DNA from: Jiangella sp. DSM 45060 | GTDB taxonomy: Bacteria; Actinomycetota; Actinomycetes; Jiangellales; Jiangellaceae | Reading direction: 5' to 3' | Assembly (NCBI RefSeq): GCF_900105175.1 | Contig: NZ_LT629771.1 | Span: 4,411,501 to 4,475,500 of the forward strand | Length of the DNA stretch: 64,000 nt | In this document: positions 1,834 through 6,109 of the stretch, in pieces | How positions within the stretch are numbered: the stretch's first letter is position 1 | How the letters are laid out: each line of letters opens with the position of its first letter | Translations under genes and position numbers: made by a program | Notes under the pieces: generated by a model | Database searches by the model: none | What the model saw: only the letters and a program-made list of their open reading frames with translations | Told to the model about the DNA's origin: nothing

Positions 1834-4686
<2,853 letters not shown>

Positions 4687-4745
4687 CGGAATTCGTCCCT
4701 CATCTGTGGTCGGGGGCCCGGAACTAACTGGCACCTAAAAGAAGG

Positions 4746-4767
4746 GACCCCTCACGCAGGAGGGGTC
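4746..4767 (-). terminator. Terminator-type hairpin in the leuS leader (attenuator)
   Basis: Read on the minus strand, GACCCCTC and GAGGGGTC form a perfect 8-bp stem around a 6-nt loop. It is followed directly by CCTTCTTTT (plus-strand 4737-4745), the layout of an intrinsic terminator. It lies 60 nt upstream of the leuS start and downstream of the leucine-rich leader ORF, so it is a conditional terminator for leuS rather than the end of another gene. Confidence 0.75.
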
Positions 4768-4768
4768 A

Positions 4769-4819
4769 GCCGCGCCGACGTGACGCCGCTGGAGGGCGTC
4801 CGTTTCAAGTCAGCGCGGC
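4769..4819 (-). promoter_or_regulatory. leuS leader RNA: long stem with inner hairpin
   Basis: On the minus-strand RNA, GCCGCGCTGAC (4819-4809) can pair with GTCGGCGCGGC (4779-4769) over 11 bp with one G-U pair. The enclosed segment holds a second hairpin, GACGCC with GGCGTC (4800-4795 with 4787-4782). The 5' arm overlaps the last codons and stop of the leader ORF, so ribosome position can decide whether it pairs. The loop word CCCTC (4796-4792) could also pair with the GAGGG arm of the downstream terminator as a short antiterminator. The pairings are read from sequence; the switching order is inference. No T-box consensus was seen. Confidence 0.6.
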
Positions 4820-4845
4820 CCGATAAGGAGCAGCAGGCCTCGCAC
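4810..4845 (-). CDS. leuS leader peptide (11 aa, four consecutive Leu codons)
   Basis: A 12-codon ORF from GTG at 4845 to TGA at 4810 encodes MRGLLLLIGPR. The four leucine codons in a row are CTG CTG CTC CTT (4836-4825). It sits between a TATTCT -10-like box and an RNA stem plus terminator hairpin upstream of leuS, the classic layout of amino-acid attenuation. The start lies 6 nt after the -10 box, so the mRNA may begin on the GTG itself. Ribosome stalling at scarce leucyl-tRNA would change RNA folding and raise leuS transcription. The role follows from the known logic of leader-peptide attenuators; it is not demonstrated here. Confidence 0.72.
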   Translation of the reverse strand: MRGLLLLIGPR

Positions 4846-4851
4846 GTTGCC

Positions 4852-4857
4852 AGAATA
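4852..4857 (-). promoter_or_regulatory. -10 box for the leuS leader transcript
   Basis: Minus-strand TATTCT, followed by six bases (GGCAAC) and then the leader GTG. The spacing predicts a transcript starting at or next to the leader start codon. No good -35 match was found upstream. Confidence 0.5.
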
Positions 4858-4881
4858 GCGCACCGGCCGGGCAGGCGGCCC

Positions 4882-4887
4882 TAGGGT
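4882..4887 (+). promoter_or_regulatory. -10 box for the terC-like gene (leaderless)
   Basis: TAGGGT followed by seven bases and the ATG at 4895 fits the actinobacterial leaderless pattern. No Shine-Dalgarno sequence lies upstream of this ATG. Confidence 0.5.
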
Positions 4888-4894
4888 TGCGGTC

Positions 4895-6109
4895 ATGGAC
4901 GTCCCCGGCTGGGTGTGGACGCTGACGGTGGCCGGCATCGCCGGGCTGCTGGCCTTCGACTACGTCGTCCATGTCCGCAAGGCGCACGTCCCGACGCTGC
5001 GCGAGGCGGCCGTGTGGTCGGCGCTGTACGTCGGCATCGCCATCGCGTTCGGCCTGGGCGTCCTCGTGTTCGGTGGCGCGGCGATGGGCACCGAGTACTT
5101 CGCCGGCTACCTCACCGAGAAGGCGCTGTCGGTCGACAATCTGTTCGTCTTCCTCGTCATCCTGCACAGCTTCCGGGTGCCGCGGGAGTACCAGCAGAAG
5201 GCGCTGCTGTTCGGCATCACGTTCTCGCTGATCGCCCGCACCGCGCTGATCTTCGTCGGATCGGCGCTGATCAACACGTTCGCGTGGGTGTTCTACGTGT
5301 TCGGGCTGGTGCTGCTGGTGACGGCGGGCAACATGCTCAAGCCGCGTGGCGGCGAACCGGACGAGGGCGAGAACGTCGCCGTCCGCCTCGCCCGGCGGCT
5401 GTTCCACACGACCGACGACTACGAGGACGGCCGGCTGTTCACCGTCCGCGACGGCCGCCGCGCGATGACCCCGCTGGTGCTGGTGATGGTGGCGCTGGCC
5501 GGCACGGACGTGCTGTTCGCGCTGGACTCCATCCCGGCGATCTTCGGGCTGACGCAGAACGTGTACCTGGTGTTCACGGCCGTCGCGTTCTCGCTGCTCG
5601 GGCTGCGCCAGCTGTACTTCCTCATCGACGGGCTGCTGGACCGGCTGATCTATCTGGCCTTCGGGCTGGCGGTGATCCTGGGGTTCATCGGCGTGCGGCT
5701 GATCCTGCACGCGCTGCACGAGAACAACCTGCCGTTCGTCAACAACGGCGAGCCGGTCGAGGTGGTCGAGCTCAGCACCGGTCTGTCGCTCGGCGTCATC
5801 GTCGTGGTGCTGGTGGTGACGATCGTCGCGTCGCTGGTCAGCCGGACGGGGCGGGCACAGACGGCCATCGCCAACGCCCGCCGGCACGCGACCGCCTACC
5901 TCGACTCCGAGTACACCGCCGACCCGGCCGAGCGGGAGCGGATCTTCCAGTGCCTCGTCGACGAGAAGCAACAGATCATCGCGCTCGGCCCGAGGTACCG
6001 GCAGATGGCCCGCGACGCCGACGGCCTGCTGGAGTTGGCCGACCGGGCCAAGGCCAGCCACGACGCGGCGGTGTCGCGCGGCGAGGCGCCGACCGGCCCG
6101 CACCACTGA
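4895..6109 (+). CDS. TerC family integral membrane protein
   Basis: 404 residues with repeated hydrophobic segments covering about residues 5-310. The TerC hallmarks are EKALSVDNLFVFLVI near residues 75-90 and ALAGTDVLFALDSIPAIFG near 205; acidic residues in these motifs are conserved in the TerC/Alx family, which exports manganese and is tied to metal handling at secretion sites. A charged tail of about 90 residues after the last membrane segment (region starting RTGRAQTAIANARRHATAY) is longer than in minimal members. No yybP-ykoY manganese riboswitch is possible, since only about 50 bp separate the ATG from the divergent leuS leader. It converges on the VKOR gene with a 9-bp gap. Confidence 0.9.
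   Translation: MDVPGWVWTLTVAGIAGLLAFDYVVHVRKAHVPTLREAAVWSALYVGIAIAFGLGVLVFGGAAMGTEYFAGYLTEKALSVDNLFVFLVILHSFRVPREYQQKALLFGITFSLIARTALIFVGSALINTFAWVFYVFGLVLLVTAGNMLKPRGGEPDEGENVAVRLARRLFHTTDDYEDGRLFTVRDGRRAMTPLVLVMVALAGTDVLFALDSIPAIFGLTQNVYLVFTAVAFSLLGLRQLYFLIDGLLDRLIYLAFGLAVILGFIGVRLILHALHENNLPFVNNGEPVEVVELSTGLSLGVIVVVLVVTIVASLVSRTGRAQTAIANARRHATAYLDSEYTADPAERERIFQCLVDEKQQIIALGPRYRQMARDADGLLELADRAKASHDAAVSRGEAPTGPHH

Follow-up and report, generated by a model that had tools for sequence, protein, structure and literature searches.

In the window, that is the whole 64-kb stretch of DNA analysed here, leuS is preceded on the minus strand (4857-4737) by a promoter box, a short Leu-rich open reading frame (ORF), a hairpin placed 5 nt further on (P1) and a terminator that abuts it. 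We read this arrangement, with a probability of about 45%, as a leucine attenuator in which P1 would hold a waiting ribosome too close to the terminator for the terminator to fold. The parts themselves, their conservation, the 5-nt spacing, the contact between P1 and the terminator, the use of the rare codon CUU and the lack of a conserved antiterminator of trp strength are established by the sequence and by its comparison with relatives. The layout, which is conserved in many actinobacteria, likely raises leuS expression when leucine is short.

All the parts that the initial annotation had named were located on the minus strand, in order, ahead of leuS. A predicted -10 promoter box, TATTCT (4857-4852), lies 6 nt ahead of the GTG start codon of the leader (4845-4843), which opens an ORF of 11 codons predicted to be leaderless and kept in relatives (4845-4810; GTG CGA GGC CTG CTG CTC CTT ATC GGG CCG CGC TGA, encoding MRGLLLLIGPR and ending at the stop TGA). 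As annotated, it carries the four consecutive Leu codons CTG CTG CTC CTT (4836-4825), of which the last (4827-4825) is the rare CTT, and this codon is separated from the P1 core by a 5-nt spacer, hereafter the ruler (4824-4820), recognized from the codon-P1 spacing across leuS leaders. P1 pairs 4820-4809 with 4779-4768, both arms being supported by folding and covariation. It had been described as an 11-bp stem over the stop codon, and the overlap stood, the 5' arm holding the leader TGA (4812-4810), but its length was corrected to 12 bp, with an additional G-U pair that closes the hairpin of the window one base earlier than the 11-bp core. The 3' arm adjoins the terminator with no unpaired base between them. 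The inner hairpin reported within the P1 loop (4800-4795 with 4787-4782) is present in the predicted fold but is not conserved: its presence and length vary among relatives, P1 interiors ranging from 3 to 47 nt in the 149 leuS elements described below, and it was therefore rejected as a separate conserved part. The intrinsic terminator hairpin, GACCCCTC-ctgcgt-GAGGGGTC (4767-4760 with 4753-4746), is supported by folding and covariation, whereas the U-run annotated behind it is interrupted in the window (CCTTCTTTT, tail CCUUCUUUU; 4745-4737), longer runs being found in most relatives.

The gene downstream, leuS (1834..4686, minus strand), encodes according to Pfam a leucine--tRNA ligase (LeuRS) of the long type, with a likely start at the ATG 4686-4684 and GAGGGA upstream of it, and its closest relative among the best 80 of 587 proteins is the LeuRS of Jiangella anatolica (93% identity). 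A gene for a TerC-family membrane protein (4895-6109, plus strand) runs divergently from leuS and lies near the leader promoter. Rfam families gave no match anywhere in the 64-kb window, and a T-box, a riboswitch or another known RNA family was dropped as an explanation, none appearing at E values up to 5 within 4500-5100. The interrupted U-run counts against an attenuator, as does the folding energy of the leader, which is no better than that of shuffled sequences (z -0.47); because folding energy alone is not unusual, the case for the element rests on comparison.

Searching named genomes with the LeuRS protein gave 587 relatives; the best 80, a sample that leans to close relatives, were retained. 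A first locus scan, which demanded Leu codons together with a promoter box, and a second, less strict one found the element in 66 of these 80 leuS loci; it was absent from 14. Five of the 14 are Cellulomonas (L014, L019, L037, L044 and L061), in which leuS seems to be itself leaderless, with TAAACT, six bases and a GTG. A covariance model of sequence and structure in which the promoter is not included (R1), and whose matches lean toward the seed leaders, matched 109 of the 246 genomes of the class, from 51 of its 104 genera; in nine of the 109 (G037, G060, G075, G089, G104, G153, G171, G196 and G219) the extracted matches precede other branched-chain genes only, and G211 was left unclassed. 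From 82 + 94 listed matches, with 13 loci that copy others not searched, 169 elements were left after the exclusion of two copies (L102, L172), a second match in L038 and partial matches in L168, L209 and L210 (two in the last); 162 of the 169 are distinct. There are 149 distinct elements of the leuS type, and leuS lies directly downstream of 148, the remaining one being at a contig end. The element precedes both types of LeuRS, 110 of the 148 enzymes being nearest to the long type and 38 to the short type. Among 296 genomes drawn from the phylum, 21 had an R1 match; seven of these 21 are listed outside the class, with leuS downstream in two of the seven, ilvB in four and a gene 29% identical to citramalate synthase in one. 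Genome G020 has two leuS genes, one long and one short (L171, L172), each with its own Leu leader.

The Leu codons are kept among these relatives and compensatory base changes are present, both of which were looked for. In an alignment of 67 sequences, both-sided changes occur in 12 of the 19 pairs of P1 and the terminator (6/11 in P1 and 6/8 in the terminator), although the sequences are related and covariation and element counts overstate their independence. The cells with a both-sided change number 63, whereas shuffled alignments have 21.0, and the observed values were not matched by any of 500 shuffles. When the partners were slid by 1-3 columns, the paired cells fell from 93.4% to 40-55% and the both-sided pairs from 12 to 4-7.

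The spacing between control codon and hairpin is held with little variation. In 148 of the 149 leuS leaders a Leu codon in frame stands exactly 5 nt ahead of GCC or GCT, with which P1 begins, the exception being L060. The spacing is present in 64/65 seeds and in 84/84 others; the seeds were not selected by it, whereas the 84 others came from R1, which favours it. Because R1 also scores sequence, the seeds are the fair sample for both the ruler and the synonymous codon. When P1 was parsed without a position constraint, the 5' gap was 5 nt in 113/149 elements, 4 nt in 26 and 1-3 nt in 10, and in those with 4 nt an extra outer pair forms, as in the window. An earlier parse had sought P1 near the terminator only, which limits its 3' gaps (0 in 112/162) by construction, and gave 5' gaps of 5 nt in 122/162, 4 nt in 26 and other values in 14, with L013 misparsed. 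Across leuS elements the stop codon lies anywhere from -2 to +26 nt relative to the start of P1, and because this position varies so widely the ruler is independent of the ORF. On the other flank, the gap from P1 to the terminator in the unconstrained parse is 0 nt in 101/149 and between -2 and +2 in 144/149. Since the spacer and the terminator gap are constant and the interior of P1 is so variable, P1 is held in place on both sides and free to vary within. From the last Leu codon to the terminator there are 24-74 nt in line but 1-9 unpaired nt by way of the folded P1 (4-7 in 134/149), and in all 149 no fewer than 16 nt separate the stop codon from the terminator. In the portions of the attenuator literature consulted, no published description of such a ruler was found.

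The promoter spacing is that expected of a transcript beginning at the leader start codon. A TAnnnT box stands 6 or 7 nt ahead of a start codon in 149 of the 162 distinct R1 elements. Because the seed loci had been picked by promoter spacing and Leu content, the evidence on the promoter is limited to the elements outside the seed set, and there the same spacing was found in all 84 distinct leuS elements, with any ATG, GTG or TTG near the start of the match allowed. Consistently, the leuS leader of Streptomyces lividans is reported from RNA-seq to be transcribed leaderless (PMC8079986).

Leaders ahead of citramalate synthase, ilvB and a threonine ammonia-lyase-like gene were also matched by R1; NCBIfam confirmed one citramalate synthase and one ilvB, the ammonia-lyase falling below its cut-off. 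A second model (R2), built from the 13 non-leuS leaders, matched 172 of the 246 genomes and 82 of the 104 genera, some of its matches being leuS elements again. Among the R2 matches listed, 60 were picked for spread, and the gene that follows is at least 60% identical to citramalate synthase in 44 and is ilvB in 13; of the remaining three, one is followed by a gene of 33.7% identity, one by an ilvA-like gene, and one gave no match. The control codons match the gene, with Leu ahead of leuS, Ile ahead of citramalate synthase and Val, Leu or Ile ahead of ilvB. In 12 of 13 ilvB leaders the codon 4-5 nt ahead of P1 is Ile, Leu or Val, L300 being misparsed. In citramalate synthase leaders the last Ile codon is 5-6 nt from P1 in 26/40, 3-4 nt in 4 and 7-10 nt in 10, five of the 45 leaders so called being left out of these counts because no Ile codon was parsed, and the 10 leaders with the widest gaps count against the generality of the ruler. 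Two genomes have a leader of this kind ahead of a gene like that for threonine ammonia-lyase, ilvA (L161, L296). A Leu-rich leader, one of the five left out, also precedes the gene with 33.7% identity to citramalate synthase (L292), and a leader with Leu codons precedes the 29% gene outside the class (L305), both genes being perhaps leuA. On leader-peptide attenuation of citramalate synthase, our literature search turned up a single study, on a methanogen.

The control codons next to P1 are also skewed to rare ones. Of the 67 seed leaders 65 have CTT as their last Leu codon and 2 have CTC; over all 149 leuS leaders the figures are 137 for CTT and 12 for CTC, while CTT makes up 0.51% of the 4737 Leu codons counted in 66 leuS gene bodies. 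ATT is the final Ile codon in 34/40 citramalate synthase leaders, compared with 6.6% of 557 Ile codons in the genes, and in ilvB leaders GTA accounts for 13 of 19 Val codons, compared with 2.3% of 1626 in the genes. The bias is weaker elsewhere, the Leu codons of ilvB leaders being mostly CTC (12/17) and CTT accounting for 4.2% of the 1553 Leu codons in the genes of the second set. The idea that control codons may be rare ones has already been put forward for the enterobacterial leu operon (PMC1183508). We also considered a +1 slip at CUU-A, which the common A after CUU had suggested, but dropped it, as nothing supported it.

These features suggest how leucine supply might be read as a distance. 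With the first base of the P-site codon as +1, E. coli ribosomes in vitro are strongly impeded in binding A-site tRNA, and translocate more slowly, when a hairpin begins at +12 or +13, and the last base inside the mRNA channel of the ribosome is +11 (PMC8861025, PMC7282821). If the last Leu codon occupies the A site (+4 to +6), the spacer would fill +7 to +11 and the P1 core would begin at +12, at the mouth of the mRNA channel; from this position we infer that P1 would stay folded ahead of the waiting ribosome and slow the decoding of the last Leu codon. When leucine is short, the ribosome would wait with P1 folded, leaving some 4-7 unpaired nt between the A-site codon and the terminator. Full folding of a terminator is said to require at least 10-15 nt of free mRNA past the A site, and termination fell from about 90% to less than 10% when a stop codon lying 28 bp upstream was brought to within 5 bp (PMC4824070), both thresholds being E. 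coli values. If, as assumed here, the folded hairpin adds no distance, about 4-7 nt would be too little for the terminator to fold, and therefore polymerase would read through into leuS. When leucine is ample, the ribosome would unfold P1 and come to rest no closer than 16 nt to the terminator, so that the terminator could form and transcription would end.

The weak point of this distance switch is the first Leu codon, which the ribosome meets first, 6-9 nt before the last; from there the distance through P1 is about 10-16 nt (for the window, 13), which falls within the limit of 10-15 nt or exceeds it. Against it there is also the finding, from the same work on hairpins at +12, that stems of greater length leave the A site unhindered (PMC8861025), and P1 plus the inner hairpin is long in many species, which counts against hindrance there.

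A more familiar mechanism, of the trp type, would have the stalled ribosome free the 3' arm of P1 to pair with the terminator loop (GCGCGG with CUGYGY) as an antiterminator. The six pairs could form in 87.1% of cells, an antiterminator overlapping the terminator was proposed for Corynebacterium glutamicum ilvBNC in a mutational study (PMC11857589), and antiterminator hairpins are described for both Streptomyces leuS leaders (PMC1262725). However, the six pairs show no both-sided change (0), lie below shuffles in all five measures and are broken in 25/66 sequences at the most variable pair, and for lack of covariation this pairing was rejected as a candidate. Pairing was also measured in RNA truncated ahead of the 3' arm of the terminator, with the last Leu codon occupied by a ribosome. 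In this truncated test the 5' arm of the terminator was mostly paired in 7/67 leuS leaders (mean 0.22), and with P1 fully open in 26/149 (mean 0.34) and in 10/60 of the R2 set (mean 0.36), whereas the positive control, Streptomyces trp leaders from 8 genomes of one genus, scored at least 0.75 in 6/6. The test is coarse, because the trp leaders also reach 0.58 without a mask and 0.65 when the ribosome sits at the stop, and masked folding with the complete terminator was not used, since it did not discriminate and scored the trp terminator as folded too. By truncated folding, an antiterminator of trp-like strength was thus not found in most of the 67 and 149 leuS leaders or of the 60 R2 leaders. 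Nor was there any signal of pairing between the Leu codons or the terminator arm and the 5' region of leuS past the terminator, and for the Leu codons with the downstream Shine-Dalgarno region the mean z over 64 loci was -0.54, with 8/64 below -1.5. We therefore regard the trp-type mechanism as rather unlikely. The leader-peptide attenuator proposed in the initial annotation, with its predicted leaderless start, is well supported on sequence grounds, since relatives conserve the reading frame and its Leu codons, the distance from the promoter and the two stems, but in most leaders it comes without a classical antiterminator of comparable strength.

P1 might instead act on polymerase. A nearly invariant U-G step lies in the terminator loop, 10-11 nt past P1 (columns 112-113 of alignment A1; 4758-4757 in the window). 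It resembles the pause consensus and might be a polymerase pause site, so that P1 could stabilise a pause which synchronises the leaderless ribosome, read-through being decided by another, unseen step. This timer is quite improbable, since it leaves the fixed 5-nt spacing to the last Leu codon unexplained, and the pause itself is a predicted one. That the leader is a plain upstream ORF with a terminator, lowering leuS expression without sensing leucine, we consider very unlikely. Codon changes in the S. coelicolor ilvB leader are reported to have been without effect, which speaks for such a role and against simple attenuation there (PMC1262725). But the control codons follow the gene in leuS, citramalate synthase and ilvB leaders, the last ones are skewed to rare codons, and in C. 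glutamicum ilvL the replacement of Val codons abolished the valine response, according to earlier work cited in PMC11857589.

The arrangement itself is not new. In 2005 Seliverstov predicted classical attenuators ahead of leuS for S. avermitilis and S. coelicolor (PMC1262725), and the S. lividans leader is reported to be leaderless (PMC8079986). The Streptomyces attenuators, LeuL2 included, share with the present element a short ORF with a Leu run before leuS, a hairpin and a terminator with a U-run, and the S. lividans peptide LeuL2 (MRAVRLLLSEPR; PMC8079986) is identical to leader peptides in the Streptomyces loci of our set. They differ in being filed as classical (PMC1262725), and the sections of these reports consulted describe them for Streptomyces only and do not mention the 5-nt ruler, the CUU bias, the two LeuRS types or the citramalate synthase leaders. 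A leuS leader attenuator was thus already known from Streptomyces; the present analysis adds how widely it occurs, how strict its geometry is, the rare codon and the absence of a clear classical antiterminator.

Among other branched-chain leaders, the C. glutamicum ilvBNC operon, described with leader-dependent attenuation and a three-hairpin switch, and the ilvB-II motif share with the leuS element a branched-chain-rich leader peptide near the 5' end of the transcript, a hairpin and a terminator (PMC11857589, PMC10272879). Effects of the Corynebacterium leaders on expression have been measured; there the upstream ORF spans most of P1 and an antiterminator is proposed to pair with the terminator stem, whereas in leuS leaders the control codons are outside P1 and no such pairing is conserved. 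Attenuation of ilvB1 was reported in Mycobacterium tuberculosis in 2026 (PMC13236596). The LEU element of actinobacterial leuA likewise has a leader peptide with a run of Leu codons, but involves a pseudoknot and pairing of the Leu codons with the Shine-Dalgarno box, and the regulation of leuA is reported to be other than classical attenuation, which counts against the attenuator reading (PMC1262725); leuS leaders gave no signal of pairing between Leu codons and the Shine-Dalgarno region. The Streptomyces trp leader, too, combines a leader peptide with control codons and an intrinsic terminator, but most folds place the Trp codons within the first hairpin, and the truncated test found an antiterminator in 6/6. 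E. coli pyrBI senses nucleotide supply via polymerase pausing, whereas the leuS leader would sense amino-acid supply, a folded hairpin bringing the ribosome close. What the two would share is that the closeness of the ribosome, and not an antiterminator, blocks terminator folding (cited in PMC4824070). In leuS leaders such proximity hinges on P1 being folded, given the 1-9 unpaired nt through P1 and the 24-74 in line.

Carried beyond leuS, the distance switch would make actinobacteria home to widespread leaderless, antiterminator-free attenuators of branched-chain genes, in which a hairpin set by the ruler after a rare codon holds the ribosome both at the mRNA entrance and against the terminator, hunger being read as distance and not as a choice of folds; we put this generalization forward as a doubtful one. 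LeuRS supply sets the production rate of every leucine-containing protein, and if the generalization were true, one compact design would link LeuRS with the enzymes of isoleucine, valine and leucine across actinobacteria, antibiotic producers included. It would also provide a simple attenuator logic, the ribosome-terminator distance, that could be built and tested by short insertions, and the ruler and the rare-codon bias give concrete predictions that set the distance switch apart from classical attenuation. The genome of the window contains further leaders outside the window itself, one ahead of citramalate synthase (C1:1176878-1176971) and, judged by eye, one ahead of an ilvB-like gene (C1:1132650-1132747, E 2.5e-4).
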